From: Lachnospiraceae bacterium
GTDB lineage: Bacteria; Bacillota; Clostridia; Lachnospirales; Lachnospiraceae
Assembly: GCA_017620155.1 (NCBI GenBank)
Contig: JAFZQY010000018.1
Location: 1-34,191 of the forward strand
Direction of reading: 5' to 3'
DNA length: 34,191 nucleotides
Position 1 is the first letter of the stretch; every line of letters starts with the position of its first letter. Positions 2,271 through 32,576 of the stretch are shown here, in pieces. Both the position numbers and the translations under genes were made by a program. The notes beneath the pieces are model-generated. The model searched no databases, had not been told where the DNA came from, and worked only from the letters and a program-made list of their open reading frames with translations.

Positions 2271-4361
2271 ATGCTTAGTGTAGAGGAACTTACAAGCAGA
2301 ACATTTGAAGAGCGCATGGATGATGTCATGCGGGAACTTCCCTTAAGAAGCTCCGAATGGACCAATTACAATCCTTCGGATCCCGGTATCACCATCCTTG
2401 AGAACCTGACAGCTTTTTCCGCTCTTCAGGGAGCGGAAATCACGACTCTCAGTTACCGTGCCCGCATGGCACTGCTCAAGATGGCAGGTTTTGTGCCCGC
2501 ACGCGGTAAGTGCTCCAGAGTTTTGCTTTCGGCTGACGAACTGGATTCACCTCATGTATTCCCCTCGGGACAGAGGTTCCATCTTGGCAATATCTGTTTT
2601 GAGACCAACAGAGAGACGCTTGCCGGAGCCTGCAGACTTACCGGTGTGTACGCATATGAAAATGAAGAGTTCAGGGACATAAGCTTCGTACTGGATAAAG
2701 AACTTTCGGTCCCGGCCAGGATATTCGGAGAAGAACCCAAACCCGGCAATGCGGTCTACTTTGTTTTTGACGGTGATGTGACGGACTTAAAAGAGATCAT
2801 CATGTATGTCCGCATGTACGCCAATGCGAAGAGAAATGAAACCGTTGACCGTACCGAGCACATTTTTGCCGATACGAAGTGGGAAGTATTCACGGAAGCC
2901 GGCTTCGAGGAAGTAAGCGTCAGAGACTACACCGGATCCTTCGTATCAAGCGGCGAGATCAGGCTGTCCTTAGCCGATTGCGGTACTGCCGTCTATACGG
3001 ATACTCCGGAATTCGGTTACTGCATAAGATGCACGCTTTTGCGCGCAGATTATGATATCGTGCCGAGGATGACTAACCTTTGCGGATTCCTTTTTGAAGT
3101 ATGGCAAAAGGACACACTGGTACACAGCGTAAGCTATAACCGCGCCGACAAGATAAATGTCAGATCACCCATAGGTGAAGATGTGTACTATCTGGTATTC
3201 GGTAAGGAGCAGAAAGGCTCATCCTACCGCAAATACGAGATGGTCATGTCCGACGATCTGACAGGACGGTTCTGCAAGTATTCCGAAAAGCGCGGGAGCA
3301 TAGATATCAGATTCAATGAAACCGCATACGGCTATGCTCCGTATAAGTGCAAGGAATGTGTTCGCGTGCTCATATATAACGAGCAGATGATGCGTTCCTA
3401 TGCGGTAGGCCGCGTGATCGGTTTTGATGATCAGGAACTTAATCTGCCGGTATCGAACGTGGTACATGAGAGTTTCTTCCTGATAGCCAGACGAAAGGAC
3501 GAGGAAGGATACCTGTATGATTTCGTCCGTCCCGAGAGGAAGATAGAAGGCGGTCTCTACTATCATCTTCTGGAAAAAGAAGGCCGCATCATAATCGAAG
3601 ATCCGGGCGATTTCATCGACGCAGAACTTTTCATGGGCGGTGTGGCCGTAACAAACGGTGATTACGGAAATATAACATCCGGCAATCATATCCTGATCGA
3701 CGATGAAGATATAGATGCCACTTTCATGAATCCGGGCGACGGCACCGGAGGCTGCTACAGAGAAACTCTCGAACAGGTAAGAGCGCGTTTCTTACGTGAC
3801 ATGAAGACGCCTTTTACGGCAGTATGTGCAAGCGACTACGAATCACTGGTCCGTACGACTCCGGGACTGTGCATCCGTAAGACCAAAGCCGTCACGGATG
3901 AGCATGAGAATATGGTCAGGGTCGTGGTCATGCCCGATACCGGCGATAACCAGCCCAAACTTAATGACATCTACATAGATAAGATAACCCAGAGACTGGA
4001 GGAGCGCAGGCTCATCACCACGGGATTCCAGATCAAACAGCCTGCATATGTGGCAGTGGGAGTGAAATGTACGGTATATGTGAAGAAGCATTTTACGGAC
4101 TGCCGCAGGATGATAGAAGACAGGATAAAAGCATGTGTGGATTACATCCATTCCGATCGCAATTTCGGAGACAGACTTATGTTCGAGGATGTTTTCCATG
4201 CGATAGAAGATCTGCCCTGCGTAGAGTATGTATATGAACTCTCACTCCACTCCGAGAACAACAAGTTGGCACAGGTTAAGGAGAACGATATCATACCCAG
4301 ATACGACTGCATATGTTATCCCGGAACCATTCAGCTTAATATAGTAACATCAGAAAAATAG
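2271..4361 (+). CDS. CIS baseplate J-like wedge protein, second copy
   Basis: This 696-aa protein opens with a near-signature start for the 'putative baseplate assembly protein' family: acidic helix, SSEWTNYNPSDPGITILENL (residues 27-46), then a helix ending LLKMAGFVPARG. The same family elements return at the C-terminus: CYRETLEQVRARF (about 495), ASDYESLVRTTPGLCIRK (about 521), VVVMPDTGDNQP, then a VAVGVKCTVYV strand and a final NFGDRLMFEDVFHAIEDLPCVEYV block. The protein is expected to build the wedge part of the CIS baseplate that links tube and sheath. The start at ATG 2271 has GAGG at 2263-2266. It sits between the first J-like gene and the gpI-like gene with short gaps, as expected for one operon. 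Cytoplasmic; no signal peptide or TM. The family assignment is strong; the exact equivalent among Afp11/Afp12 is not resolved here. Confidence 0.88.
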   Translation: MLSVEELTSRTFEERMDDVMRELPLRSSEWTNYNPSDPGITILENLTAFSALQGAEITTLSYRARMALLKMAGFVPARGKCSRVLLSADELDSPHVFPSGQRFHLGNICFETNRETLAGACRLTGVYAYENEEFRDISFVLDKELSVPARIFGEEPKPGNAVYFVFDGDVTDLKEIIMYVRMYANAKRNETVDRTEHIFADTKWEVFTEAGFEEVSVRDYTGSFVSSGEIRLSLADCGTAVYTDTPEFGYCIRCTLLRADYDIVPRMTNLCGFLFEVWQKDTLVHSVSYNRADKINVRSPIGEDVYYLVFGKEQKGSSYRKYEMVMSDDLTGRFCKYSEKRGSIDIRFNETAYGYAPYKCKECVRVLIYNEQMMRSYAVGRVIGFDDQELNLPVSNVVHESFFLIARRKDEEGYLYDFVRPERKIEGGLYYHLLEKEGRIIIEDPGDFIDAELFMGGVAVTNGDYGNITSGNHILIDDEDIDATFMNPGDGTGGCYRETLEQVRARFLRDMKTPFTAVCASDYESLVRTTPGLCIRKTKAVTDEHENMVRVVVMPDTGDNQPKLNDIYIDKITQRLEERRLITTGFQIKQPAYVAVGVKCTVYVKKHFTDCRRMIEDRIKACVDYIHSDRNFGDRLMFEDVFHAIEDLPCVEYVYELSLHSENNKLAQVKENDIIPRYDCICYPGTIQLNIVTSEK

Positions 4362-4379
4362 TACACAGGAGCATACCCG

Positions 4380-5438
4380 ATGGCAGAAGGAATATGGTAT
4401 TCCCTGAAATATAACAGAATAAAGAATGCCTGCATCAAGGGCATGACCTATGACGAAAACGGGACCATCAGTCTGGATGAGAGCGCACACGAGCACAGCA
4501 TTTTTTTCCGGCCGCTTGACGGTGTCGCAGCCGGCTCCGGATGGGGCCGTATATGCGCCGGCCTGGTTTCGTCGGAGGAAATGGTATGTTATACTTATAT
4601 ATTGGCCACTGATGCGACAGAGGTCATATCAGATGAGGGTATAAGCCGCAGTATAGAGGATATGCTGTGCGATCCGGACATCGATACTTACACCAAGATA
4701 AACCTCATGACTCAGAGCGGGGCGAAGAGATTCGTAAACTGCGAAGACGAGCTCCTGTATGACTTAAACGGACGTTATCTGTATATAGCCATCGAAATGA
4801 TGGGATACGGGTCGGCTTCGATAAGCGGTATCAGAGTCAATGCCACTGGTGACAACTTCATGGCGACCTTCCCTCAGGTTTATCAGGAGAGGAACAGTTT
4901 CTTCCACAGATTCATGTCGGTCTTCTCGAGCATATACAACGATATCGGTGAGGAGAACGAGAAGCTCTACGAGATACTGGATCTGGATAAGTGCTCTCCC
5001 GAACTTCTTGAGATGTACGGATCCTGGTTCGGCATAGATCTGATCGGCGGATTCCTCTCGGAAGATGTGCTCAGGACGATCGTCAAGGAAGCTTATCAGC
5101 TCAACCGGATGAAGGGCACCAGGAAGGGCATAGAGCGCATCCTGGAGATCATACTCGGCGAACCTGCAGTTCTCTTCGAGAACCACATGCAGGGCGGCGG
5201 GGTATATGATGTTACGGTTCTCATCAGGAAGAAACTGACCGAGGAATTAAGACACCAGCTGACCTTCATGCTTGACCAGTTCAAACCCTTAAGGGTTCGC
5301 ATCCGTCTGCTTCAGATGGAGAACGATGCTGTCATGGACGGCAACTCATACCTGGATATGAATGCCACCATTCCGGGTGAAAAGAATGTAGTACTGGATC
5401 AGGAGACTCTGTATGACGGGGTCATAACCCTGACATGA
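4380..5438 (+). CDS. Phage tail protein I (P2 gpI-like) / CIS baseplate component
   Basis: This is a 352-aa protein. Residues about 159-312 match the phage tail 'protein I' pattern used in phage-tail-like systems: FPQVYQ (164-169), a helix with FFHRFMSVFSSIYND, then ELLEMYGSWFGIDL (about 208-221), LRTIVKEAYQLNRMKGTRKGI (231-251, the conserved 'YR.KGT..gl' element) and a C-terminal strand with FKPLRVRIRL (301-310). Residues 1-155 form a beta-rich N-terminal region that I do not recognise. The start ATG 4380 has AGGAG at 4367-4371, eight bases upstream. In P2-like phages gpI is a baseplate wedge/adaptor protein; the same role in a CIS is inferred from position directly after the two J-like wedge genes. 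It ends 17 bases before the STAS gene. Confidence 0.85.
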   Translation: MAEGIWYSLKYNRIKNACIKGMTYDENGTISLDESAHEHSIFFRPLDGVAAGSGWGRICAGLVSSEEMVCYTYILATDATEVISDEGISRSIEDMLCDPDIDTYTKINLMTQSGAKRFVNCEDELLYDLNGRYLYIAIEMMGYGSASISGIRVNATGDNFMATFPQVYQERNSFFHRFMSVFSSIYNDIGEENEKLYEILDLDKCSPELLEMYGSWFGIDLIGGFLSEDVLRTIVKEAYQLNRMKGTRKGIERILEIILGEPAVLFENHMQGGGVYDVTVLIRKKLTEELRHQLTFMLDQFKPLRVRIRLLQMENDAVMDGNSYLDMNATIPGEKNVVLDQETLYDGVITLT

Positions 5439-5455
5439 AAGATTGAGGAGAAATT

Positions 5456-5755
5456 ATGACAATTCAAGAGATCAAAGGCGAAAACACCGTACAGCTCAAT
5501 GTTGAGGGACGTATCGATGCAATGACGGCGACGGAATTCCAGAATGAGATACTCAAAGCATTCCAGAAGTCGTCTAACGTCATCATCGACATGCGTAATG
5601 TACAGTACATCTCGAGTGCGGGACTTCGCGGGCTGATGATCGGACATAAGACAGCTGGTTCAAAAGGAGGCAGATTCACACTGATCAATGTGGGTGAGTC
5701 TGTCAATGAAGTCTTACGCGTGACGGGACTTGATAAGGCGCTCAATATACAATGA
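5456..5755 (+). CDS. STAS-domain protein embedded in the CIS operon
   Basis: The protein is a single 99-aa STAS domain of SpoIIAA/RsbV type. The conserved NVEGRID strand is at 15-21 and the YISSAGLRGL loop at 51-60; by alignment with SpoIIAA Ser58 and RsbV Ser56 the phospho-acceptor would be Ser54. GAGGAG at 5444-5449 is a good ribosome site for ATG 5456. Its stop codon overlaps the start of the ABC ATPase gene by four bases (ATGA), so the two products are likely made in fixed ratio. Known STAS proteins either sequester RsbW-type kinases after dephosphorylation, or bind and activate an ABC ATPase as MlaB does with MlaF. Which role applies here is open; the overlap with an ABC ATPase favours the second, the GHKL ATPase two genes on keeps the first alive. 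Confidence 0.92.
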   Translation: MTIQEIKGENTVQLNVEGRIDAMTATEFQNEILKAFQKSSNVIIDMRNVQYISSAGLRGLMIGHKTAGSKGGRFTLINVGESVNEVLRVTGLDKALNIQ

Positions 5756-6477
5756 TCACATTTGAACATATCAGTCACCGGTATGAGACCGATGAGGGAG
5801 AGACCGTTGTATATAAGGATTTCAACGAACAGATCGCTGACGGTGAGTTCATAGTACTTACCGGCAGGAGTGGCAGCGGCAAGACGACTCTCCTTAAGAT
5901 GATCTTAAAAGAGATCGAGCCCGATGAAGGGATCATACGCATCGATGACAAGAGCATAAGAGATATCAGACGCCGGGACATTCCTTTTTACAGGAGAAAT
6001 ATCGGGGTCCTGTTTCAGGATTTCAAACTGATACCCGACGTGAACGTATATGACAATCTGTATTATGCGATACTGGCTACCGGGGGATCGGGTAAGGATG
6101 CCGAGAAGAAGATCACACATGTGCTGACGATGCTCGGTATAGACCGGTTCCATAAGCGCTTCCCGAGAGAAATGTCGGGTGGCGAACAGCAGAAGGTATG
6201 TCTGGCCAGGGCGGTGATCAATCATCCGAAGATCCTGCTGGTCGATGAACCTACCGGGAATCTGGGCCCCTTGGATTCCGCGGACATGGTCAGACTGCTG
6301 GATATCATACATGCCCAGGGGATCACGGTGATCATGGCGACACATGATATAAGTGTGGCGGATTCACCCGAGAGACGGCGGATTAATCTGGATGAAGTGA
6401 ATCCCGAGTCAGAGATGACGACACCCGAGAAGGCGGCATCGGAATCCGATGATAATGTGGAGGTTAACATAACATGA
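5752..6477 (+). CDS. FtsE-like ABC ATPase without an FtsX partner
   Basis: This is a 241-aa ABC ATPase. Motifs seen: Walker A GRSGSGKTT (38-46), Q-loop VLFQDFKL (Q89), signature MSGGEQQK (141-148), Walker B ILLVDEP (161-167), H-loop ATHD (H198). The RRRDIPFYRRNIGVLFQDF stretch (73-91) is typical of FtsE. The D-loop, normally NLDP, reads NLGP (170-173), so the usual aspartate is missing. After about residue 207 there is an extra acidic, low-complexity tail. FtsE normally works with the permease-like FtsX to transmit ATP hydrolysis across the membrane to wall hydrolases; no FtsX or other permease follows. Instead it overlaps by ATGA the STAS gene upstream and the membrane GHKL ATPase gene downstream. 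Inference: it drives or gates a membrane or wall process linked to the injection system, with the neighbouring TM proteins as partners. Confidence 0.9.
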   Translation: MITFEHISHRYETDEGETVVYKDFNEQIADGEFIVLTGRSGSGKTTLLKMILKEIEPDEGIIRIDDKSIRDIRRRDIPFYRRNIGVLFQDFKLIPDVNVYDNLYYAILATGGSGKDAEKKITHVLTMLGIDRFHKRFPREMSGGEQQKVCLARAVINHPKILLVDEPTGNLGPLDSADMVRLLDIIHAQGITVIMATHDISVADSPERRRINLDEVNPESEMTTPEKAASESDDNVEVNIT

Positions 6478-7358
6478 CAAGAACACAGAAACTCGCTATA
6501 TGCCTATCTTGCATATTTTATGTGGCGACGATATTCGGCTTTTTCTATCTGGATCTGCCGATCATCATAGCTCTGTTCGTGCTCTTTACATTATCCATCC
6601 TGCTCTTTGCCTATCTGTGCTACCACGTTCAGCGCGACTACACCGGCGCCGATCATCTGCAGCAGGAGATAGGTGTGCTTAATGCCGAGATCGCCAGATT
6701 AAAGGGTGAGAACGAAGCGAATATAAACGAGAAGAATTCCGAACTCTATAAGAAACAGCTCGAGATCGACAATCTGAACACTAAGATAACGGAGACAGAG
6801 GCGGCTCTCGAAGAGGCGAAGAACGCCGCTACAGAGCAGCCTGTTGCAGAGCCTTCACGCTCTAATGACGAACTCATGGAAAGCCTTCTGCCTCCCGATG
6901 ATGAAGATCCGGCTGTGACCGTGGATATCATCGATGTGGCGAGACAGGCCATCGCAGATCTGCGCGACCAGGCCAGGGAGGCAGGGCTTATCATCAATAT
7001 CTCCAGCGCATCGGATAAGCTGATGGTACATGCGGGCAGGAAACGTCTGCTCATCATGTTCAGGAACATCATAGATAACTCGATCAAATACATGCAGACC
7101 GCAGGGTCACTCGTGATCACGATATCCGCGATCGAAGATGATATCTTCATCGTGCTCAAGGACACCGGCAAAGGTCTGCCCGAGAACGAGACCAGGCACA
7201 TATTCGAACTTAACTTCCAGGGTTCCAACCGCATAAGCGGAAACGGGCTCGGATTAACACAGGCCAAGGCTATCGTGGAGCATTACGGCGGGACGATATA
7301 TGCCAGAAGCCCCGAAGGCAGCGGAATGGGCATATACATACAGCTGCCCACCACATAA
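6474..7358 (+). CDS. Membrane GHKL (histidine-kinase-type) ATPase lacking a DHp histidine
   Basis: This is a 294-aa protein with two TM helices (about 8-27 and 29-50), a coiled coil (about 60-118, heptad-like Leu/Ile/Glu/Lys), an acidic Pro-rich linker (121-150) and a C-terminal GHKL ATPase domain (150-294). ATP-site motifs are intact: N-box RNIIDNSIKY with N198/N202, G1 DTGKGL (230-235), G2 GNGLGL (256-261). The usual phospho-acceptor element of histidine kinases (His-Glu/Asp-x-Arg/Asn in a dimerisation helix) is absent, although the segment DVARQAIADLRDQA (154-167) resembles what normally follows it. The start overlaps the FtsE-like gene by ATGA. It may be a kinase that phosphorylates a separate protein (for example the STAS protein, as RsbW does), or an ATP-dependent conformational switch. 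No response regulator is nearby. Confidence 0.85.
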   Translation: MTRTQKLAICLSCIFYVATIFGFFYLDLPIIIALFVLFTLSILLFAYLCYHVQRDYTGADHLQQEIGVLNAEIARLKGENEANINEKNSELYKKQLEIDNLNTKITETEAALEEAKNAATEQPVAEPSRSNDELMESLLPPDDEDPAVTVDIIDVARQAIADLRDQAREAGLIINISSASDKLMVHAGRKRLLIMFRNIIDNSIKYMQTAGSLVITISAIEDDIFIVLKDTGKGLPENETRHIFELNFQGSNRISGNGLGLTQAKAIVEHYGGTIYARSPEGSGMGIYIQLPTT

Positions 7359-7379
7359 GGAGGCTGAAGGAGAAAAGAT

Positions 7380-8138
7380 ATGAAGAGAAATACTCCCATT
7401 TTTATAGCTTTGGCAGTCTTCTTTGTGATAGTGGCCGTAGGAGCGCTCCTGCTTCTGTCCAGAGACGGATCCGTATTTAACCGCAGTAACCCTGATTACG
7501 GTTCGGAACCTGCTGTCATGACACAGACGGTGATCGCTGAAGAACCGCAGGAAACCACGCCCGCAGTATCTGAGCCTGAGCCTGAACCCGAGCCCGAACC
7601 TGAACCGGTAGTGGCAGAAGAGGCCGAGGAAGCAGAAGTTGAGATGCCCGAACCCGAGCAGGTATTTGAGATCAGGTACTTTACTCTTGAGACGAATAAC
7701 TCCACTACGATCTTAAGACTCAGAGCCGAACCTTCCGAGGAAGCGGAGATCATCAAGAAGATGTATCCGGGATCGCACGGCGTCGTCCTTCAGCCGGGTA
7801 ATGAATGGTGTCATGTGATGATGAATTCCGGCCTTGAAGGATATTGTGCTACGGAATTCCTGACTCTTACGGAAATTACCGAGGATGCATTCCCGGCAGA
7901 TCTCGTTGAAAGAGTGGAAGCACCCGTGGAGGAACTGAATGTTCCTGCGTTCACGACTCTTCTGATAGATAAGACATCTGAAGATATAACCGAGGACATA
8001 CTTACTGATGAAACTGAGGCCTTAGATGCTGAGCCGGCAGAAGGCACGACAGAAGCAGCACCGGCAGATACTGCAGCTACTCCCGCTGCAGATGCGGCTG
8101 CTCCTGCAACTGATTCAACAGTGGAGGCTGCGCAATGA
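7380..8138 (+). CDS. Membrane-anchored extracytoplasmic SH3-domain protein
   Basis: This is a 252-aa protein. It has a short basic N-terminus and one hydrophobic helix (about 8-28), with no clear signal-peptidase site, so it is likely a signal anchor with the rest outside. There follows an acidic Pro-rich spacer with an EP repeat (about 65-76), a bacterial SH3 domain (about 97-163, with TILRLRAEPS at 110-119 and the EGYCATEFL end at 154-162), then a Glu/Thr/Ala-rich tail (about 170-252). Bacterial SH3 domains commonly bind peptidoglycan or its peptides. Two purine-rich sites (AAGGAGG near 7358, AAGGAG near 7368) precede ATG 7380. The gene sits inside the CIS operon, and its stop overlaps the next start by ATGA. 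Inference: it may tie the CIS or its regulatory ATPases to the cell wall; direct evidence for that is absent. Confidence 0.8.
   Translation: MKRNTPIFIALAVFFVIVAVGALLLLSRDGSVFNRSNPDYGSEPAVMTQTVIAEEPQETTPAVSEPEPEPEPEPEPVVAEEAEEAEVEMPEPEQVFEIRYFTLETNNSTTILRLRAEPSEEAEIIKKMYPGSHGVVLQPGNEWCHVMMNSGLEGYCATEFLTLTEITEDAFPADLVERVEAPVEELNVPAFTTLLIDKTSEDITEDILTDETEALDAEPAEGTTEAAPADTAATPAADAAAPATDSTVEAAQ
7572..7607 (+). repeat. Hexanucleotide tandem repeat encoding (Glu-Pro)6
   Basis: Six consecutive copies of a GAR-CCY hexamer encode alternating Glu-Pro in the spacer between the membrane helix and the SH3 domain. Changes in copy number would keep the frame and only alter spacer length, a rigid rod-like element expected to span part of the wall. 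Confidence 0.8.
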
Positions 8139-8368
8139 ATCTTGAGCAGAGGCTCTTTAAGGATAACAAGCAGAAAGAGATCAAGAAGAAACAGACTGCT
8201 TTCCGTGAGGATGAAGAGGATGTTGAGACCTACATGTACGCTGTTCGTAAGCCCATGGAGTTCATCAATGAGAACACTCACGGGATGTTCGATATAAGCA
8301 ATCAGTCAGGCATAAACACGGCCAAGAGTGTATTTGACCGGGGCGCAGTATTTAAGACCGGTATATGA
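8135..8368 (+). CDS. Small orphan protein of the CIS operon
   Basis: This 77-aa protein is not one I recognise. The first 30 residues are highly charged and Lys-rich with a likely helix (NKQKEIKKKQTAF), followed by an acidic patch (REDEEDVE), then a more ordered part with MEFINENTHGMFDISNQSG. There is no signal peptide, TM or cysteine. The start ATG 8135 overlaps the stop of the SH3 gene (ATGA), which supports it as a real gene, and its end lies 32 bases before the AAA+ ATPase. It could be an adaptor between the membrane proteins upstream and the CIS particle or the ATPase downstream, but this is only inferred from position. Confidence 0.7.
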   Translation: MNLEQRLFKDNKQKEIKKKQTAFREDEEDVETYMYAVRKPMEFINENTHGMFDISNQSGINTAKSVFDRGAVFKTGI

Positions 8369-8400: not shown

Positions 8401-10851
8401 ATGGCAAGATTCAATGATGAATTAAATACAAAACCCTTCAAGAGTTACAGCGAATATATGCAATATATATTCGATTGCGTAAACTCCAGCCTGGATGTAT
8501 ACATATCCGGGCTGAAAGTCATATACGCAAACGGTGAGGGCGGATACAAGAACATCATGTATCCCGATATCGAACTCGCAGGGGACACCTGCCGTAACAG
8601 ACTGACCGAGTCCTATAAGACGGGTTCATCCGAAGGCAGCTCCGCGAAAGAAAGCCCCGCCGGGGATAAGTCGGCAGATGACGATGAAGACAGCCTTTTC
8701 GGTGATGATTTCTTTGGTTCTTCTTCGGGTTCGGATGGCGGCTCTTTTGATAAAGACGATGACGATTTTGATGAAGACGATGAGCTTGATGCCAGTCTTC
8801 TGGAACTCCTCGGCGACTTCGCATCCGGGAATATCGACTCCGATGAACCCGGTGAAGAGGAGTCTGCCGAAGTCTGGGATGAGATTAAGAAGGATTCTGA
8901 TCTTCCCATCGTAAGCAGACTTCGTGTTATAGATGAGCGTGCGAAACTGACCGTTGAGAACGGTATCGACCTTCCTTTCTACGATCTGTGCAGCAGGCTT
9001 AAGTTTGAACCCTTTACTCAGTTCTGTTTCGCCTGCGGTATCCTGTCAGCAACACAGACAGATTACGCCGGCGTATTCCATATCATCAATGAGAATGCCG
9101 GCCTGTCCGCGCCTACCATAGAATCGGCCGCCAAGGTATTCTTCGGATCGGCTTTCTCGATCACCAGCGCATTCGGTGACATGAGTGCATGTCTCGAGCA
9201 GCTCCAGCCCGTGCTGCCTCTTCAGGTCATCGACAGCATGCCTTTCTCTACGATAGTATCACCCGATAAGCGTATGATCGACTTCCTCTTCGGTCGTAAT
9301 CCTCTTACGATCGATGAGAACTTCGAAAGATTCATATACATGATGACCGACGATGCGCCTCTTGATCCCGTCATGGCCAACGAAAGCCGCTTAAATGCGA
9401 TGAAGATTTCCTACAATGACGGCGTCCGTATCTTTTACTATTACGGCGACGACGGCAGCGGACGTAAGTTCTTTGTTAAGCATTTCTGCCGCGAGAACGG
9501 CCTGCGTGCGATCGCCATCGATTGTAAGAAACTTTTCATTTATGATTTTTCCTTCGTGGAAAAGGCGCTCTGGAGTGTTACCAGAGAGTGTATCCTCTCA
9601 AAGTCATGCTGCTGTCTGACCGAACTTACCTATCATGATGAGGAAAAAGAGAAGTTCTTCGGATACATGGACCTCGCATTCTCAAAGCTTACCGAAAAGG
9701 ATATCCTCGTGTTTGCGATGAGTAAGCTCTACATAGATTTCAGAGAGGTCACCAAGAGCCAGTTTACGGATCTTGAGCTGCCTACACCCAACACCGGTGA
9801 GAGACTGACCTGCTGGGAATACTTCTCCAAGGGATTCGATCTGGCTGATGAAGTCGATCTGCTCGAGATGTCGACGAAGTTCCTGTTCACATCGGGCAAG
9901 ATCCATGACGCCCTGATCAAGGCCAAATCCCTCTCCAACATGGATAACGAGGAGAAAATATCGAGGGCCAACCTCTTCAAGGGCTGTTATGCCCAGATGA
10001 GTTCGGAACTGTCACAGAAGGCCACGAGAGTAGAAGCCAAGTTCGGTTTCGATGACATTGTCATGAACCCGACCCAGCGTGAGACCATAGAGCATGCGAT
10101 AGAGCAGATGACCTACAGGAAGCAGGTATACGAGTCATGGAACTATACGAAGAAGTATCCGTACGGACGCGGACTTACGGTCCTGTTGTTCGGTGCTCCC
10201 GGTACCGGTAAGTCCATGATGGCGCAGGTTCTGGCACATGAACTTAACCTCGAGCTTTACCGCGTAGATATATCCAAGGTTGTAGATAAGTATGTCGGTG
10301 AGACTGAGAAGTCCCTGTCGATGATATTCAGGGAAGCCAAAAAGTGTAATGTCGTCCTGTTCTTCGACGAGTGCGATACCATATTCGCAAAGCGTTCCGA
10401 CGACGGTGGAAGTAACCAGGCATCGGCCAATAACAAGACGGCTCTCTTGCTTCAGGAGATGGAAGCATACGACGGCGTCTGTGTACTGGCTACGAACTAC
10501 AAGCACAACATCGATCCCGCATTCTTCAGACGTATGAAGTACATCGTTGAGTTCCAGTTCCCCGATGTCGATACACGTGAGATGCTGTGGCGTACGACCA
10601 TACCCAAGGACACACCTCTTTCGGATGATGTTGACATCAGATTCCTGGCAGAGAAGTATGAGTTTGCCGGCGGTAATATCAAGAACTGTATCCTGAACGC
10701 CGCTTTCCTTGCCGCTGCTGATCCTACAGCAAACGGTCAGGTGTGCATGAGACATTACCTGAATGCCATCAAGTACGAGTTCGTCAAGGTCGGCAAGGTC
10801 TTCACGAAGTCCGACTTCGAGCCCTACGCCGAGGACGTAGGATTGGCGTGA
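8401..10851 (+). CDS. CIS-type AAA+ ATPase with degenerate first AAA module
   Basis: This is an 816-aa protein. Layout: N-terminal helical part (1-68); acidic Ser/Gly/Asp linker (about 70-160); a winged-helix-like domain (about 170-285, LKFEPFTQFCFACGIL); a degenerate AAA module whose P-loop reads GDDGSGRK (349-356) and which has no convincing Walker B acidic pair; and an intact AAA+ module with Walker A GAPGTGKS (598-605), Walker B VVLFFDE (651-657), sensor ATNYKHNID near 698 and an FFRRMK arginine stretch near 709. This winged-helix plus double-AAA plan is that of the ATPase found in extracellular CIS clusters (Afp15-type), thought to act in assembly or disassembly of the particle. AAGG lies a few bases before ATG 8401. 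It is the last gene of the CIS run; 564 non-coding bases follow. Confidence 0.9.
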   Translation: MARFNDELNTKPFKSYSEYMQYIFDCVNSSLDVYISGLKVIYANGEGGYKNIMYPDIELAGDTCRNRLTESYKTGSSEGSSAKESPAGDKSADDDEDSLFGDDFFGSSSGSDGGSFDKDDDDFDEDDELDASLLELLGDFASGNIDSDEPGEEESAEVWDEIKKDSDLPIVSRLRVIDERAKLTVENGIDLPFYDLCSRLKFEPFTQFCFACGILSATQTDYAGVFHIINENAGLSAPTIESAAKVFFGSAFSITSAFGDMSACLEQLQPVLPLQVIDSMPFSTIVSPDKRMIDFLFGRNPLTIDENFERFIYMMTDDAPLDPVMANESRLNAMKISYNDGVRIFYYYGDDGSGRKFFVKHFCRENGLRAIAIDCKKLFIYDFSFVEKALWSVTRECILSKSCCCLTELTYHDEEKEKFFGYMDLAFSKLTEKDILVFAMSKLYIDFREVTKSQFTDLELPTPNTGERLTCWEYFSKGFDLADEVDLLEMSTKFLFTSGKIHDALIKAKSLSNMDNEEKISRANLFKGCYAQMSSELSQKATRVEAKFGFDDIVMNPTQRETIEHAIEQMTYRKQVYESWNYTKKYPYGRGLTVLLFGAPGTGKSMMAQVLAHELNLELYRVDISKVVDKYVGETEKSLSMIFREAKKCNVVLFFDECDTIFAKRSDDGGSNQASANNKTALLLQEMEAYDGVCVLATNYKHNIDPAFFRRMKYIVEFQFPDVDTREMLWRTTIPKDTPLSDDVDIRFLAEKYEFAGGNIKNCILNAAFLAAADPTANGQVCMRHYLNAIKYEFVKVGKVFTKSDFEPYAEDVGLA

Positions 10852-11415: not shown

Positions 11416-14400
11416 GTGAAAGTAGTCAAGAGTTTCAAGGGCCTGAAAAAGTGGGCTAAAACAACCTTTATCGCCCTGCTCACCATATGTATCATCACCA
11501 CGACAACAGGCGTGGGTTCACTGATCGCGTATGCGGATCCAACCGGAGATCCGGCATCTACAGGTGAGCCGACGCCCGGTTCTACTGATCCTGCAACAGG
11601 CACAACGCCCGGTTCCACAGGTACCGAAACAGGCTCGGGGTCCGGTTCCACAGATCCTGCAACAGGCACAACGCCCGGTTCCACTGACCCCGAAACAGGC
11701 TCGGGATCCGGTTCCTCCGGCACAACAACAGACCCTACATCCGGTGCCACAGATCCTGCAACAGGCACGACGCCCGATTCCACACCCGCATCGGATCCTT
11801 CTGAAACTCCTGCTGATCCTCATACTCATTCATATACGGTGACAAGTAAGACTCCGAATGATGAATCGACTCATACAATCGTGCAAACCTGTTCATGCGG
11901 AGATACGATAAGTACGGTCGAGTCTCATAATATGTCAGGCGGAGCATGTACTGTCTGCGGATATTTAGATCTGTCTTATAGCGGAACAGACTCCGAAACA
12001 AGCTCCGGGACAGACTCTGGAACAGATTCTGGTACAGCTTCTGGAACAGGCTCGGCAACCGGTTCTGTCTCACCAGATTATCAGACTCAGACACGTGGCC
12101 TTACGTCAACTCCGATGCTGGGAGCATACAACTCCCCGGGTACACGTTTTTCCGGTGGATATACGGATGATCAACCCGCAGCATATTCAGATACTATTAT
12201 CTATAACGGTAGTGATCAATTATCTGGTCTATTTAATGTGGGGACAGCCAAAACATCCGTAAACGTCGGCGTTAACAGCGATGGACCTTTTACACATAAC
12301 TTAACAGCAGATACCGCTGAGTTTTATTATTTGGGAGGAAGCAGGAATAATTCATTCACTAATGGGATTCAGACCAATGTTGCGGTAAATGCCGGGAGCT
12401 ATAGGATGGATCGCAGTGCTGTTTTCACTAAGGATAATACATATCCTTACCAAGGGCATCAAACAAGCTTTAATGGATCCTTCTGGAATTATATCGCTCC
12501 ACGTCCTATTACTCCGGATTATGGCGTTACAGTTTCTTCAGTTGTATATAATGCAGCCACAAATTCTGCGACTGCCACAGTTACATATAATTCCTCAAGT
12601 GTCTCCAATTTGAATTATACTATTTCACTTAATACGATCCCTTCGCTTATCGATCTGAGTACAAGCACGACAGCAAGTATTCCCGGTGCCGTGACTGTTA
12701 CAGGCAGAAACAATTTTACCGATTCGGTTACTCTTGATGCTACTGTATCAGCCATACCGCTGAAATATGACGATCGAGATCTTAATACTACACAATCCTA
12801 TGTGGACCAGGTAAGACTCTCCTCATCGGTTTCCGAAGTTCAGATATCTTTAGAACAGAGCGGTCCGTTCAGTGATTCGACCCTGTACGCGGTTCCAACC
12901 GATACAGCTCAGAGTTTCCCTGTATACCTTAAGACATCCACAGGCCTGATAATTAAGCAGACTGCAGGCCCGCTGCAGATCACCGAGACCATTCCCGTCA
13001 GATATGACGGAGCATACAAGGTCGATGAATATACCGATAAGGTGGATATCACCGCCGAAGGGTATTTGATCAGCACATCTGAAGAAGGTCCGTTCACAGA
13101 GAAATATACTCACACCAGAATAGGTGAGAAACAGGCCTTTTATCTGTATTTCCTGGATAAGAGTAACCCTAACGGTACACCGACCAAAAAACTGATCACC
13201 GATATTACCATAGTAAAGGGCGCTGAAGCTCAGATACCGATCAGATATGACGGAAAAGAGACCAAGAAGCCTTCCTATACTGATAAGGTCACAATTACGG
13301 CTCAGGGCTATCAGATAGGAACATCTGCGGAAGGTCCTTTTAGCAAGGAGTATGTTCACAGAAAGGTTGGCATGGATCAGAACTTCTATCTGTATTTTGT
13401 GGATGAGAGTAACCCGTCCGCAACTCCTGTCAAGAAGCTGATCACGGATATAAACATAGTTGCCGGTGTTGCGGAAGCTGATGAAGGTGCCCCTACCGGT
13501 TACATCAAGGTTGACACCTACGCTTCCGATAAACTTGCGAAGGATAAGAATGCGGTTTACATAACACAGGAGAAGAGGCTGATCGAGATCGGTGCCGTGG
13601 ATGAAAGTGGTTCATCTGTTAAGATCGAGTATTTCACGAGCGACAAATACTATGAGACCAGATCCGAGATAGAAGGTGCGGTGACCGAAGCCGCTGATCC
13701 CGGTATGGATAAATCTCAGATTGATAAAAATGCCAAATGGAAGACATACTACAGCGATGGCATGCCGACGCTTACCGAGAATACCGGAGAATACATCTAT
13801 GCCAGAATATCGGATGAATCCGGTAATACAAGATATCTGTCCACCGGCAGGATCATCTATGATACCAAGGCTCCGACTGTGAACACCATCATGCTGGCAG
13901 AAGGTAATGATGGAATCCTCTCGGTGCTTACCGGTAAGGACAACCTGAGCGGCATATACAGATTCTATCTCAGATATATAGAGAAAGATAAAAAAGACAA
14001 GACACCGACAGCTCTTGAGATCATAGGAGACAACTGGTATATAGAGAATCTGACGGGGGATGAACTTGCCGCCGGCGGATCATTCAAGATGCCGACGCTG
14101 GATCCGAAGAAGACATATATATTCTACGGAGTGGCTGTAGACAAGGCCGGTAATATCAGTGAAGTCAAGGAATACGAGACCAAGGGCAAGGCTTCTGCCG
14201 ATAATTCGGCTTCAAAGAACAGCATAGACGATCCGAACGCCGGAAGCGGTCTTACACCCGCACCTAACGGCATAGCAGGATCGGGTACACCCGAACCCAA
14301 GCCCAAGCCAACTTCGGGACCCGAGGCATCATCGGGGGCAGCAGGCACACCTGACAGCCCGGCTTCAGGATCGGGAAGTGCTTCCGGAACAGCAGCGACT

Positions 14401-19808: not shown

Positions 19809-21662
19809 ATGAAGGAAGAGACTACGTTTAAAGAATTGGTAAATAATAACCGGCCCTTCAATAAAAAGAGGACCGGTATTATTTCGCAGATCATAAAACC
19901 GCTTTTCTGGTTTCTCATCATCCTGATCTTTTTTGAGCAGGCTTTTTTGCTTGCATTCTTTCTCAGCGGACATATCAAGACCAAACAGGTAGGTGCGATA
20001 AATCTGGTGAATTATACCGCGGAAATGCTGGAGGGGTATAAAGCTATCGGATGGCTTACGGAATACTGGCTTGAGCACTACGATGAAATGGAACTGATCT
20101 ATGACAAGACGAGACTTTCGGTTCAGATAGACAAGATCGAAAAAGAATTCACCGAAATGGGGACGTTTAAGTCCGTAACTTACGAAAACATCAACAGACA
20201 GGATCCCGAAATACAGAAATTATATGCCGAGGTATGCTACGCAAGGCTGATCAGTGAATTTGACAGTCTGAAGTATTCATTTATGCCTAAATATCTCTTT
20301 GCTTTTGTGATAGACCCCGAAGAGGAAAAGGGCACGTTCCTTATTACCGGTGCGTACCCCGATGAAAAGAGGGTAAGCGACGGTGGAGATATATACGAAC
20401 TGGGTTACGAGATTCCCTATGAGAGGGGGATGTATCCGCAGCTCGATGTATTACTCCATTTTGATGACGCTGATCAGGAATACGGAATCGGGGACTTATG
20501 GAAATTTGAGTTCAAGAACGGCGACGGTTCCGTTCACATGTTCGGCCCGGTTTATTCTCCGCAAGGCGAGATGGTAATGATAGTGGGCGCATCCTATGAC
20601 TGGTTTGATTTCGTATCCAGCGGCGTGGATATGAGCTTCATTCTTCTGCTCGCATCCTCGGTAGTACTCATCCTGATCCTGAGACATACCGGTAAATTGC
20701 TCAGAAAGAACGTGGTCGATCCCGTAAGTAAGGAACAGACGGTTCTTGACAATTACAGTCAGGATAAGGACCCCGAAAAAGCGATCAATGGGCTTGCTGA
20801 AGTTGTGTCCAATAACGAGATAGAAGCGCTGGCAGTGAATTTTTCATCCATGATCACGGAGCTTGACAGATACATGGATGAGATCCGTCACATGACTGAG
20901 GAGAAGGAACGTATAGCCGCCGAACTCTCTATGGCCGAGAAGATTCAGGCCGGTATGCTGCCTTCCGATTTTCCTGCTTTTCCCGATCATGATGAGTTTG
21001 AACTCTATGCGATCATGGATCCTGCCAAGGAAACCGGTGGTGATTTCTATGATTTCTTCCTGATCGATGATGATCATATCGCACTCGTTATAGCCGATGT
21101 ATCCGGCAAGGGTATGCCTGCGGCATTGTTCATGATGAACGCCATGACGCTCATCCGCACGAGAACTAAGATGAATATGGGCGATCCGGGTCAGATCCTT
21201 GCGGATGTAAATAACCTGCTGTGTGAACGCAACGACCAGAACATGTTCGTTACGGTATGGATGGCCGTGCTCGATCTGAAGACCGGTAAGGGCGTAGCCG
21301 TAAATGCCGGGCATGAGGATCCCGTGATCAGGAGAGGCGATGGGGCATATGAGATCGTTATATATGATCATTCCATGGTCATGGGCGCCCTTAAAGACAT
21401 GGAATATCCGGATCATGAATTTGAACTTAACCCGGGTGATACCATCTATGTATATACTGACGGTGTGCCTGAAGCGATAAATGAGGCTGAAGAATTCTAC
21501 GGAACGAACCGGCTTAAGGAGAAGCTCAATGAATTTGCCGATCTTAGCATGACAGACCTGCTTCCCGCAATCAGGAAGGACATAGAGGACTTCGCGTGCG
21601 GGGCAGAGCAGTTCGACGATATAACCATGCTCGGATTCAAGTATTTTCGTTATAAGGACTGA
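19809..21662 (+). CDS. Membrane SpoIIE/PP2C-family serine phosphatase
   Basis: This is a 617-aa protein. TM1 about 32-54; an extracytoplasmic sensor region of about 220 residues (55-274) that I cannot assign; TM2 about 275-292; a HAMP-like/coiled-coil linker (293-385) ending EKIQAGMLPSDFP (377-389), the usual lead-in to SpoIIE phosphatase domains; PP2C domain 400-612. Metal-site motifs are present: GGDFYD (410-415), ADVSGKG (429-435), NAGH (499-502), YTDGVPEA (549-556), DDIT (603-606). Such enzymes dephosphorylate the serine of STAS proteins. The next gene, five bases on, starts with a STAS domain, its likely substrate. The start ATG 19809 follows the surface protein stop by two bases with no obvious ribosome site, so expression is tied to the surface proteins. 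Confidence 0.92.
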   Translation: MKEETTFKELVNNNRPFNKKRTGIISQIIKPLFWFLIILIFFEQAFLLAFFLSGHIKTKQVGAINLVNYTAEMLEGYKAIGWLTEYWLEHYDEMELIYDKTRLSVQIDKIEKEFTEMGTFKSVTYENINRQDPEIQKLYAEVCYARLISEFDSLKYSFMPKYLFAFVIDPEEEKGTFLITGAYPDEKRVSDGGDIYELGYEIPYERGMYPQLDVLLHFDDADQEYGIGDLWKFEFKNGDGSVHMFGPVYSPQGEMVMIVGASYDWFDFVSSGVDMSFILLLASSVVLILILRHTGKLLRKNVVDPVSKEQTVLDNYSQDKDPEKAINGLAEVVSNNEIEALAVNFSSMITELDRYMDEIRHMTEEKERIAAELSMAEKIQAGMLPSDFPAFPDHDEFELYAIMDPAKETGGDFYDFFLIDDDHIALVIADVSGKGMPAALFMMNAMTLIRTRTKMNMGDPGQILADVNNLLCERNDQNMFVTVWMAVLDLKTGKGVAVNAGHEDPVIRRGDGAYEIVIYDHSMVMGALKDMEYPDHEFELNPGDTIYVYTDGVPEAINEAEEFYGTNRLKEKLNEFADLSMTDLLPAIRKDIEDFACGAEQFDDITMLGFKYFRYKD

Positions 21663-29667: not shown

Positions 29668-31842
29668 ATGAAGAAGATTAAGAATCTGGTGATCGGGGGT
29701 ATTCAGAACAAGGTTTTTAACCTGATCCTGATCACGGTCATATTGATGATAGGCGTTTTCACCGGAGTGGCTATCTATCAGTTCCGGACATTCAACCGGA
29801 TCTTTGAAGAAACCCACCAAAGACAGAAGACCGCCGTGCTTACGATATCATCCGATACCATGGATGCCGTCATAGACTCAAGCCTGAGCAATACTACGGA
29901 TATGGAGGCATACATAGCCGATGATGTATTCCGTGAGCTCAGGAATGAAGTGAATCTGCTCGCAGAGTATGCCACGGATATCGCCGAGAATCCGGGGGAC
30001 TATCCCGAGGCACATCTGTCACGTCCGCAGAAGGGATTACAGGGCACTACGGCGGTTCAGCTGGTCACGGCATCGGGCGTGGATATCGATGATCATGATG
30101 TAGTCCATGATGTCAGGCTCTTTGGCAACATGTCCGGCGTTCTGACAGCGACCTACGACAGCATGGATATCAATTCCTGTTATATGTCCACACCGGCAGG
30201 GATCATGATAGTAGCCGATCCGTATTCCGGAGACCGCATAGATGCCGACGGCAACTACCTGACCATAGAATCTGAGCAGCGCCCCTGGTATATAGGCGCC
30301 GTCGAAGCGGGGGATGTATATTTCTCCGATATCATGACGGATACCTTTAACGGCCGCAAGACCATAGTCTGCTCCAAACCCGTATATTATCGGGACGGTG
30401 AGCTTGCCGGAGTCATAGGCATCGACCTTTATCTGGATTCTATCGCAGATTCCGTAGAACAGTCCGCGAGCGAAGGCTCGTTCGTATTTATTGTAAACGA
30501 CAGCGGGCATGTCATTTTTTCTCCCAAGACCGAAGGGGCGTTCAAGGCGACTCCCGAGACGGCCGAAGTAGATCTGCGTAAGTCGGAAAATGCCGAACTT
30601 GCAGATTTTATAACGGATGCTATCGAAGGGAAAACAGATGTAAGACAGCTCGATGCGGACGGCGGTACCTGGTACATGTCGGGAACCAAGATGCCTACGA
30701 TCGGATGGGCGCTCATTAATGTCGTGGACAAGTCCGTGACGGACAGACCTACCGATCTCATGGAAGAGCAGTATGAGAAATATCTTGAAGAAGCTGCAGT
30801 CGGCTACCGCGACAGTCTTTCACATTCCAATGCGACCATACTTGTGCTTCTCGGACTGGTATTACTGATGAGCCTGGCTATGGGACTTTCTCTGGCTAAA
30901 AGGATCGTCCGTCCTCTTAACGGTCTGACCAAGAGGATCGGCGAGATCAGCGAGGATAATCTCCAGTTCATGATGGAGGACCAGTTCCGTACAGACGATG
31001 AGATAGAAGTGCTGGCACAGTCCTTTGCGGATCTATCGCGTAAGACGATCCAGTATGTAAACGAGGTGACCAGAGTCACCGCCGAAAAAGAGCATATCGA
31101 GGCTGAACTTGATATGGCCAAGGCTATTCAGGCAAGTCAGCTTCCCAATATATTCCCTCCTTATCCGGAGCGTGAAGAATTCGAGATCTATGCCTCCATG
31201 ACGCCTGCGAAGCAGGTCGGCGGCGATTTCTACGATTTCTACATGATCGACGACGATCATATCGCTTTAGTCATGGCGGATGTATCCGGCAAGGGGGTTC
31301 CGGCGGCACTGTTTATGATGATCTCCAGGATTTTGATCAAGAATCGCATCTGTACAGGTGAAAGTCCCGGCGAAGCATTGTATAATGTAAACAACCAGCT
31401 GCTGGAAGGTAATGAAGCCGAACTGTTCGTAACGGTATGGCTCGCGGTGATCGAGATCTCCACAGGCAAGGGCATATCGGTCAATGCCGGACATGAGCAT
31501 CCCGCTCTGAAACATGCGGGTTCTGACTATGAACTCGTGACATACAGGCATTCACCCGCCGTATCCACCATGGAAGGCATAAACTTTAAGGAGCGTGAGT
31601 TTACGCTTGAGCCCGGTGACAGCATCTTCGTATACACTGACGGTGTAGCCGAGGCCACGGATATTGAAGACCAGCTCTTCGGTACGGACAGAATGCTTGA
31701 AGCACTGAATTCAGATCCCGATGCAGGTGCGGAGCAGACACTAAAGAATGTGATGGATCATATAGAAGAGTTCGTCGCAGGTGAAGAACAGTTTGATGAT
31801 ATTACCATGTTAGCGTTTAAGTACTTAGGCTCAAAAGGATAA
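29668..31842 (+). CDS. dCache-HAMP-SpoIIE/PP2C sensor phosphatase
   Basis: This is a 724-aa protein. TM1 about 17-37; extracytoplasmic double-Cache sensor (about 55-385) with the typical RPWYIGAVEAGDVYFSD (205-221), KPVY (237-240) and FIVNDSGHVIFSP (274-286) elements; TM2 about 389-408; HAMP 409-465; linker DMAKAIQASQLPNIFPP (482-498); PP2C domain 505-718 with GGDFYD (518-523), ADVSGKG (537-543), NAGH (606-609), YTDGVAEA (656-663), DDIT (710-713). dCache domains usually bind small molecules such as amino acids. The enzyme should dephosphorylate STAS antagonists in response to an external ligand. The RsbW-like kinase gene follows after four bases and a STAS gene after that, so this is a ligand-sensing input to a partner switch. 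It is clearly paralogous to the 19809 phosphatase in the catalytic part. Confidence 0.95.
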   Translation: MKKIKNLVIGGIQNKVFNLILITVILMIGVFTGVAIYQFRTFNRIFEETHQRQKTAVLTISSDTMDAVIDSSLSNTTDMEAYIADDVFRELRNEVNLLAEYATDIAENPGDYPEAHLSRPQKGLQGTTAVQLVTASGVDIDDHDVVHDVRLFGNMSGVLTATYDSMDINSCYMSTPAGIMIVADPYSGDRIDADGNYLTIESEQRPWYIGAVEAGDVYFSDIMTDTFNGRKTIVCSKPVYYRDGELAGVIGIDLYLDSIADSVEQSASEGSFVFIVNDSGHVIFSPKTEGAFKATPETAEVDLRKSENAELADFITDAIEGKTDVRQLDADGGTWYMSGTKMPTIGWALINVVDKSVTDRPTDLMEEQYEKYLEEAAVGYRDSLSHSNATILVLLGLVLLMSLAMGLSLAKRIVRPLNGLTKRIGEISEDNLQFMMEDQFRTDDEIEVLAQSFADLSRKTIQYVNEVTRVTAEKEHIEAELDMAKAIQASQLPNIFPPYPEREEFEIYASMTPAKQVGGDFYDFYMIDDDHIALVMADVSGKGVPAALFMMISRILIKNRICTGESPGEALYNVNNQLLEGNEAELFVTVWLAVIEISTGKGISVNAGHEHPALKHAGSDYELVTYRHSPAVSTMEGINFKEREFTLEPGDSIFVYTDGVAEATDIEDQLFGTDRMLEALNSDPDAGAEQTLKNVMDHIEEFVAGEEQFDDITMLAFKYLGSKG

Positions 31843-31846
31843 AAGT

Positions 31847-32260
31847 ATGAAAGAATTGACCATTGAGGCAAAAGTGGATAATCTGGATAAGGTACTTTCC
31901 TTTGTGGACGAGCAGCTGGAGACGGCCGGATGTTCCATAGGCATGCAGACCCAGATCGACATAGCGGTGGAGGAGGTATTCGTCAATATCGCCCAATACG
32001 CCTATGATCCGGACTCGGGACCTGCCAAGATATCCATAGATATCGTCGGAACCAATCCGGTAAAAGTGAAACTGACATTCAATGATACAGGAGTTCCGTA
32101 CAATCCTCTTGCAAAAGAGGATCCGGATGTGACCATGAGTGTAGAGGAACGTCCGATAGGCGGCCTCGGGATCTTCATGGTCAAGAACATCATGGATGAT
32201 GTTCAATATGAATACAAAGAAGGACATAACATCTTCACTATCACCAAGAATCTAGAATAA
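31847..32260 (+). CDS. RsbW/SpoIIAB-like anti-sigma-type serine kinase
   Basis: This is a 137-aa single-domain GHKL kinase. N-box EEVFVNIAQYAY (42-53, N47), G1 NDTGVPYNPL (79-88, D80), G2 GGLGIF (105-110). This is the form that phosphorylates STAS proteins on serine and holds a sigma factor or other target when the STAS partner is phosphorylated. It starts four bases after the dCache phosphatase and is followed by a STAS gene, giving the phosphatase-kinase-antagonist order of a partner-switching module. No sigma factor gene is seen in the window, so the final target may be elsewhere or non-sigma, for example the STAS-synthetase or the STAS protein of the CIS operon. Confidence 0.93.
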   Translation: MKELTIEAKVDNLDKVLSFVDEQLETAGCSIGMQTQIDIAVEEVFVNIAQYAYDPDSGPAKISIDIVGTNPVKVKLTFNDTGVPYNPLAKEDPDVTMSVEERPIGGLGIFMVKNIMDDVQYEYKEGHNIFTITKNLE

Positions 32261-32276: not shown

Positions 32277-32576
32277 ATGCTCAACATTACCAAGGAATCA
32301 AACGGAACGGATCTTACTATCACACTGGAGGGTAGATTGGATACCGCCACATCCCCCGATCTTGACGCACAGCTCAGATCTGTAATAGACGGAGTAAAAT
32401 CACTGACATTCGATATGGACAAGCTTGCATATATATCCAGTGCCGGCTTAAGAGTGCTTCTGTCCGCCCAGAAGATCATGAACAAGCAGGGTAGCATGGT
32501 CATCAAAAATGTGGCTCCTGATGTAATGGAGATCTTCGAAGTGACCGGCTTCTCGGACATCCTGACCATAGAGTAA
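32277..32576 (+). CDS. STAS-domain anti-sigma-factor antagonist
   Basis: This is a 99-aa STAS domain of RsbV/SpoIIAA type: ITLEGRLDT (15-23), YISSAGLRVLL (52-62), aligned phospho-acceptor Ser55, and a final FEVTGFSDIL helix. GGGAGG lies just before ATG 32277. It is the natural substrate of the RsbW-like kinase immediately upstream and of the dCache PP2C phosphatase before that. It is similar in length and motif to the lone STAS protein of the CIS operon (5456-5755), so cross-talk between the two is possible. Confidence 0.93.
   Translation: MLNITKESNGTDLTITLEGRLDTATSPDLDAQLRSVIDGVKSLTFDMDKLAYISSAGLRVLLSAQKIMNKQGSMVIKNVAPDVMEIFEVTGFSDILTIE

Follow-up and report, generated by a model that had tools for sequence, protein, structure and literature searches.

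A conserved block of putative signalling genes between the baseplate and AAA+ genes of one lineage of extracellular contractile injection systems in Lachnospiraceae and their relatives

Extracellular contractile injection systems (eCIS) such as Afp, PVC and their kin combine sheath, gp19, CIS_tube, Phage_base_V, gp25, J-like baseplate, gpI, Pvc16 cap and AAA+ genes in one cluster. To our knowledge, little is known about the timing, placing and release of eCIS particles. We analyzed a 34,191-nucleotide stretch of DNA from a Lachnospiraceae bacterium (contig JAFZQY010000018.1 of assembly GCA_017620155.1), which is a whole contig (hereafter the window) that begins inside a contractile injection system (CIS) cluster; the source genome is 88.63% complete and 6.58% contaminated. 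The cluster holds the same families as those systems but differs from them in that up to five signalling genes sit between gpI and the AAA+ gene, encoding a STAS protein, an FtsE-like ABC ATPase, a membrane GHKL ATPase, a membrane SH3 protein and a 77-amino acid protein (o77). A sequence-only reading of the window had placed these five genes there, and all of the open reading frames (ORFs) were found at its coordinates, on the + strand, with families as it described them (Table 1).

The classic partner-switching systems SpoIIAA/SpoIIAB/SpoIIE and RsbV/RsbW/RsbU share with this locus and its relatives the STAS, GHKL kinase and SpoIIE phosphatase families, as well as a Ser at the position taken to be the phosphosite; they differ in that here none of the 22 window genes scanned belongs to a sigma-factor family, and a membrane GHKL protein and an ABC ATPase are added. 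The nearest precedents are BtrUVW and MlaB–MlaF. BtrUVW of Bordetella controls type III secretion, and as in our proposal a STAS protein, a serine kinase and a SpoIIE phosphatase are tied to an injection machine and act on secretion (PMC7498569, accessible part). The btr locus table of that paper includes BtrN, an ABC transporter without known function. The Bordetella machine, however, is a type III system, its locus includes an ECF sigma factor, and the accessible part of the paper describes neither a STAS gene beside a lone ABC ATPase gene nor an ABC-RsbW fusion (PMC7498569). MlaB is a STAS protein that works with an ABC ATPase, MlaF, which it binds with its phosphosite residue at the interface (PMC7367683, accessible part); the Mla system moves lipids, whereas the ATPase here is FtsE-derived and its binding to STAS is predicted. 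In an open-access library no paper paired contractile injection with STAS, and the sole paper listed there as joining a contractile injection system with partner-switching concerns gene transfer agents (PMC11150451). A paper listed as mentioning both CIS and FtsE is a review of mycobacterial peptidases (PMC12067865). There was no Lachnospiraceae CIS paper among the matches listed; one candidate, PMC10266427, merely cites a CIS paper. These searches agree with the earlier statement that no set with this combination had been described.

We then asked whether the block is conserved. Relatives were collected with an alignment of seven baseplate proteins, which gave 444 in named genomes, and the best 80 by likeness to the window baseplate protein were taken; by name, nearly all are Lachnospiraceae, Butyrivibrio, Pseudobutyrivibrio or Eubacterium. 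Sixty-four of the 80 loci have gpI and a following AAA+ match, and these intervals were used for all counts, the other 16 being excluded. For seven of them (L059, L076, L084, L099, L111, L112 and L114) the AAA+ match is truncated or weak, scoring below 700 bits, and the family profiles used for counting were built from matches in the same loci. The STAS gene was present in 61 intervals, GHKL in 58, SH3 in 52, o77 in 51 and FtsE in 50. All five families occurred together in 33 intervals, and in 30 of the 64 the genes kept exactly the order and strand of the window, on which ground chance clustering was rejected. Recent insertion of the block beside an unrelated operon was rejected as well, because the same order is found in many species. 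STAS immediately followed gpI in 61 of the 64 intervals, and wherever both STAS and FtsE were present they were neighbours (48/48). Candidate STAS pieces in L075, L087, L092 and L101 were discarded, none lying on the + strand. An RsbW-like gene was found in 9 of the 64 intervals (11 counting two fusions described below) and SpoIIE in 2.

The block is also tied to this type of CIS at the level of genomes. In a sample of 150 genomes of the family, the GHKL profile, at a threshold of E 1e-25 that was our own choice, matched only 6, which are the 6 with a close AAA+ orthologue (Fisher, 7e-11). The o77 profile (E 0.01) matched 4 of the 150, one copy with an inner stop. Two genomes of the sample, G104 and G085, harbor a more distant CIS without GHKL, with the layouts gpI–STAS–Pvc16–AAA+ and gpI–Pvc16–AAA+, respectively, and two others, G129 and G006, carry the GHKL gene well away from the gpI cluster or on a separate contig. 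The genome and locus sets overlap (G041 is L058, G452 is L073, G231 is L080 and G355 is L082). In an order-wide sample of 392 genomes, 28 matched the baseplate protein with an E value of at most 1e-20, and the layout of all 28 was read. STAS directly followed gpI in 8 of them (G000, G452, G355, G231, G166, G411, G177 and G456), which are 8 of the 9 nearest CIS genomes, the exception being G350, and in none of the 19 more distant ones, some on short contigs (G210, 6.6 kb). One of these 19, G445, has STAS, SpoIIE and RsbW-like genes elsewhere in its CIS cluster. This distribution indicates that the module belongs to one CIS lineage. Thus, the idea that the block is a part of the CIS holds for this lineage, and the block is a lineage trait rather than a general CIS part, since STAS does not stand right after gpI in the 19 more distant of the 28 genomes. 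For this lineage, the conserved signalling genes between the baseplate and AAA+ genes provide named proteins to delete and test.

The five-gene set reads as a partner-switching module. At a rough probability of 0.45, somewhat short of even, we propose that the block is a dedicated partner-switching module of one eCIS lineage in Lachnospiraceae and relatives, with an FtsE-derived ABC ATPase as its output, and that it acts on CIS assembly, docking or release; the module would then probably decide when or where the injection machine is used. Phosphorylation, direct contacts, the signal and the controlled CIS step are what we infer here from sequence. The STAS protein would be an RsbV/SpoIIAA-like phospho-switch. 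Its residues Ser53 and Ser54 are conserved in at least 95% of 71 aligned rows, and Ser54 aligns with the Ser of the DS[AT]GL motif in TM1442 and in an anti-sigma-B antagonist, two RsbV-type chains, a residue that we take to be their phosphosite. Ser54 could be phosphorylated by GHKL-type kinases, namely the membrane GHKL protein paired with SH3 and, in some relatives, an RsbW-like kinase, and SpoIIE-type phosphatases could reverse the reaction. The output would be the ABC ATPase encoded beside STAS, not a sigma factor: STAS, or a kinase released by STAS, would set the state of the ATPase, as MlaB does for MlaF, and the ATPase would act at the envelope on the machine's assembly, membrane docking or release. 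A narrower form of this proposal, in which wall-sensing GHKL kinases phosphorylate STAS and so gate an ATPase that docks, fires or releases the machine, would make the block a post-translational circuit in an eCIS operon, with a partner switch aimed at an ABC ATPase rather than at a sigma factor; we offer this form more tentatively.

The gene arrangements in relatives provide the evidence for a link between these proteins. STAS, FtsE and RsbW genes stand in a row in L115, L123, L126, L130, L131, L040 (G006) and L039 (G129). In two loci, both from metagenome assemblies, the FtsE-like ABC ATPase is fused to an RsbW-like HATPase_c_2 domain (L118:13570-14751 and L120:13760-14965); the RsbW-like part was recognized by a Pfam match for L120, to which L118 is 85% identical. 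In L111 and L112 the interval contains both SpoIIE and RsbW genes. In another family, f17, gpI is followed by STAS-RsbW (L241 and L242) or by a longer run in which two other ORFs separate STAS from SpoIIE and RsbW (L174). In the window, the sole GHKL protein of the block is histidine-kinase-like, and an RsbW-like gene lies about 23 kb away. Two SpoIIE proteins are encoded farther along the contig; the first is a candidate partner, while the second stands in a row with the RsbW-like gene and a second STAS gene near the contig end (29668-32576), a cassette whose link to the CIS would be conjectural. The sequence-only reading had suggested a relay from kinase through STAS to ABC ATPase. The two FtsE-RsbW fusions and the constant STAS-FtsE adjacency fit such a relay better than a set of unrelated genes, and other relatives have simpler STAS-RsbW forms, with or without SpoIIE. 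The fusions point to an ATPase as a possible target of partner switching, which would extend the classic regulatory scheme.

Several observations weigh against this proposal. SpoIIE was found in the available DNA of only 6 of the 80 loci, and STAS is the sole interval gene in L124, L129 and L135. FtsE is gone from 14 of the 64 intervals, with a copy located behind AAA+ in L098, L106, L107 and L110, while STAS usually remains, so FtsE is not the only possible target. The RsbW-like and membrane GHKL proteins, both candidate kinases, occur together in 9 intervals (11 with the fusions). The closest solved chains to the GHKL protein are histidine kinases, whose catalytic domains it resembles, and the GHKL match in G146, one of the six genomes counted above, is partial (101.6 bits). 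The H-loop His of the ABC ATPase is replaced by Gln in 7 of the 10 rows whose locus has an RsbW-like gene, separate or fused, as against 0 of 53 rows without one (L108 was unreadable and is outside the count), which argues against a hydrolysing motor there. The Gln rows are the two fusions and five loci with a separate RsbW-like gene; L076, L039 and L040 retain His. All seven belong to a single nine-member clade in which L121 and L134 retain His, and a single event could therefore account for the Gln rows. For the MlaB precedent, Ala at the site leaves a protein that is still bound yet non-functional, and phosphorylation of MlaB is unproven in the accessible part of the paper (PMC7367683).

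The best-placed alternative, which we nevertheless regard as unlikely, is transcriptional partner switching, in which STAS turns the CIS operon on by freeing a sigma factor, itself encoded elsewhere, from the hold of an RsbW-like anti-sigma factor, while the FtsE-like ATPase and the GHKL-SH3 pair do separate envelope jobs. By profile the STAS protein is an anti-sigma antagonist, its TIGR00377 match being above the cut-off, and RsbW-like kinase and SpoIIE genes stand beside STAS in relatives. The eCIS regulators named in the accessible part of a survey, GerE/LuxR, BTAD and RfaH, sometimes with a histidine kinase, are transcriptional as well (PMC8213781). On the other hand, RsbW is fused to FtsE in two loci, and, besides the window genes scanned, no sigma factor was found in the 8 of 12 unclassified interval ORFs that were given to Pfam, the rest of the genome being outside the search for sigma partners.

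The membrane GHKL protein and the SH3 protein raise another alternative. A simple hydropathy scan of the GHKL protein showed one 49-residue hydrophobic span, at residues 5-53, which we read as two transmembrane helices, and a second stretch at residues 210-228 inside the ATPase domain; a coiled coil is likely. The N, G1 and G2 boxes are intact, and no phosphoacceptor His is conserved upstream of the ATPase domain in 59 aligned rows, the best His column holding 22 at residues 50-100, 2 at residues 100-150 and 11 at residues 150-190. With no conserved DHp H-box, an ordinary histidine kinase was rejected. The SH3 protein showed one hydrophobic span in the same kind of scan (Table 1). The two genes are adjacent on one strand in all 52 intervals that have both, whether forward or inverted, and SH3 was not found in 6 further intervals with GHKL. 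Long ORFs in L123 and L126 had raised the possibility of a GHKL–SH3 fusion, which was discarded because there is no SH3 match and the extra length precedes the usual start. The pair may be a wall-facing sensor with a kinase-like output. The earlier idea that the SH3 protein holds the whole complex at the wall gives way to this pairing, which persists where the pair is inverted. It could be, then, that the GHKL-SH3 pair works separately, sensing the state of the wall and anchoring the CIS at the envelope or licensing it there, and that STAS-FtsE is a second unit. This is improbable in our estimate. The constant adjacency of the pair speaks for it, as does the presence of STAS-FtsE without the pair in L080, L082 and L132. 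Mapped on the FtsE tree, the inverted arrangement takes 6 changes, 4 of them forced; because loci without visible GHKL were scored as not inverted, the true number is lower. Against it, GHKL remains in the interval in 58 of the 64 loci and accompanies the close AAA+ gene in 6 of the 150 family genomes, and no response regulator was found among the 22 window genes scanned.

The output that we propose for the partner-switching module, the ABC ATPase, was compared with FtsE. With the FtsE profile TIGR02673 it scores 223.8 bits, as against 275.6 bits for the true FtsE of the same genome. In a midpoint-rooted tree of 19 of the 56 CIS-FtsE rows, built without the distant L039 and L040, the CIS rows formed one clade (100/99) that joined the genome's own FtsE (99/99), with 17 further ABC ATPases of the genome falling outside this group; in a second tree, the long-branched own FtsE adjoins L040 and L039. 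By the first tree the CIS ATPase is FtsE-derived. Of 64 CIS-FtsE rows, 62 have Walker A, 63 have the signature and 57 show the Walker B pattern. FtsEX has an ATPase of the same lineage but differs in gene context: there is no FtsX gene in the window, and the one FtsX_ECD match of the genome lies beside the true FtsE on another contig. The regions R2, R3 and R4 of the FtsX cavity, as described for pneumococcal FtsE (PMC7468199, accessible part), were compared by identity to the consensus of genuine FtsE in 26 genuine FtsE rows, 56 CIS rows and the 17 other ABC ATPases. Identity was 0.57, 0.45 and 0.12 for R2, 0.95, 0.56 and 0.37 for R3, and 0.71, 0.17 and 0.18 for R4, in that order, and 21 of 26 FtsE-specific positions are lost in the CIS rows. 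By this measure R2 and R3 are partly kept and R4 is lost. The FtsE-like identity claimed for this protein therefore stands as to lineage, with the FtsX cavity retained just in part. That the ATPase plugs into housekeeping FtsX and, under STAS control, opens peptidoglycan locally so that the machine can reach or leave the surface is the least probable of these alternatives: its grouping with FtsE, the single FtsX_ECD seen in the 88.63% complete genome and the R2 and R3 values nearer to FtsE than those of other ABC ATPases favor it, while the R3 value of genuine FtsE, the drop at R4 and the lost FtsE-specific positions make such a partnership less likely.

The window itself encodes only the baseplate end of the machine and the AAA+ ATPase. 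In a genome of the same genus, G041, the rest of the cluster is present: Pvc16 cap, DUF4280, sheath, gp19 tube, two CIS_tube genes, Phage_base_V and gp25, followed by J and gpI (Phage_sheath_1, 1e-17; Phage_T4_gp19, 6.6e-32; Pvc16_N, 3.7e-26). By its genes, the cluster is of the eCIS type. No capsid or terminase family was found in the 22 window genes or in the 16 upstream G041 ORFs scanned (all 7 of L036 and 9 of the 14 of L166, the remaining five L166 ORFs being outside the scan). The 77-amino acid protein had no match in phage records, and viral contigs gave three weak relatives of the J protein. Prophage origin was rejected, given no head genes in the scanned genes and nil or weak matches to phage and viral records. 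In PVC, the AAA+ protein Pvc15 loads effectors (PMC11495950, accessible part).

The 77-amino acid protein had been called an orphan. It is instead a conserved family, present in 51 of the 64 intervals and directly before AAA+ in 50 of those 51, and alignments show a conserved C-terminal motif that, within the window, occurs only in o77 itself. No Pfam match lay above the cut-off (NeuB at 0.013), and there was none in NCBIfam or PHROGs.

Table 1. Features of the window, with the profile matches and comparisons on which each assignment is based
Feature	Position	Strand	Evidence
Baseplate J-like protein 1 (5' part cut by contig start)	77..2257	+	Baseplate_J E 1.9e-4, TIGR02243 6.6e-11; 73% to residues 300-1025 of full G041 gene
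Baseplate J-like protein 2 (query for relatives)	2271..4361	+	Baseplate_J 2.7e-9; TIGR02243 2e-28
gpI-like baseplate protein	4380..5438	+	Tail_P2_I 5.9e-10; NF053768 CIS12 1.5e-18, below its cut-off
STAS protein, RsbV/SpoIIAA-like	5456..5755	+	STAS E 1.9e-17; TIGR00377 71.5 bits, above cut-off
FtsE-lineage ABC ATPase, no adjoining FtsX gene	5752..6477	+	ABC_tran 1e-37; TIGR02673 FtsE 223.8 bits, below cut-off 264.85
Membrane GHKL ATPase without conserved phosphoacceptor His	6474..7358	+	HATPase_c 3.1e-21; conserved N, G1, G2 boxes; hydrophobic span 5-53
Membrane-anchored bacterial SH3 protein	7380..8138	+	SH3_3 E 9.5e-5, 22.9 bits, below gathering score 27; hydrophobic span 1-33
77-amino acid conserved small protein (o77 family), conserved C-terminal motif	8135..8368	+	Interval counts and alignments
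CIS AAA+ ATPase	8401..10851	+	AAA 5.4e-28; 59-86% to six close orthologues, five genomes
SpoIIE-type phosphatase, candidate partner (putative module member)	19809..21662	+	SpoIIE 6.9e-50; hydrophobic spans
dCache-HAMP-SpoIIE phosphatase, second partner-switch cassette	29668..31842	+	SpoIIE 1.6e-43, dCache_1 4.9e-19
RsbW-like HATPase_c_2 kinase, second cassette	31847..32260	+	HATPase_c_2 2.8e-21
Second STAS protein, second cassette	32277..32576	+	STAS 1.2e-16

The junctions of the five genes measure -4, -4, +21 and -4 bp in the order STAS/FtsE/GHKL/SH3/77-amino acid protein, as expected from the ATGA overlaps noted at three of the four junctions. Intergenic gaps are at most 32 bp from the first baseplate gene to the AAA+ gene, which is followed by a 564-bp gap. 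Between positions 4000 and 12500 there are 3 terminator-like sites, as against 6.0 in shuffles, and 16 promoter-like sites, as against 11.0 (standard deviation, 3.8); among the latter, a weak match at 5430-5457 reaches the STAS start.

Past the 564-bp gap, the window encodes two large proteins (11416-15171 and 15175-19806) with hydrophobic stretches near both ends and without a Pfam family; weak relatives lie behind AAA+ in many Butyrivibrio loci. A STAS domain fused to an AMP-binding (acyl-CoA synthetase-like) enzyme is encoded at 21668-23551, 5 bp past the first SpoIIE phosphatase gene.

The titles of many records among the best 80 of the 444 relatives of the eCIS baseplate protein (L056-L135) name the rumen or other ruminant gut sites, in contrast to the depletion of eCIS from mammalian microbiomes reported in the accessible part of the survey (PMC8213781). 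Behind the first AAA+ gene there is often another, more distantly related one (L086, L094, L095, L130 and others), and the source genome has a distant AAA+ paralogue on contig C25, which gave no CIS baseplate match. In G146, two tandem CIS-type AAA+ genes flank a STAS match and the partial GHKL match (L041:13550-19493), with no baseplate match within the 20 kb read. A gene for a GNAT acetyltransferase of about 284 amino acids lies near the AAA+ gene in L124 (16112-16969) and L115 (14798-15649), and ORFs of similar length lie behind AAA+ in several further loci.

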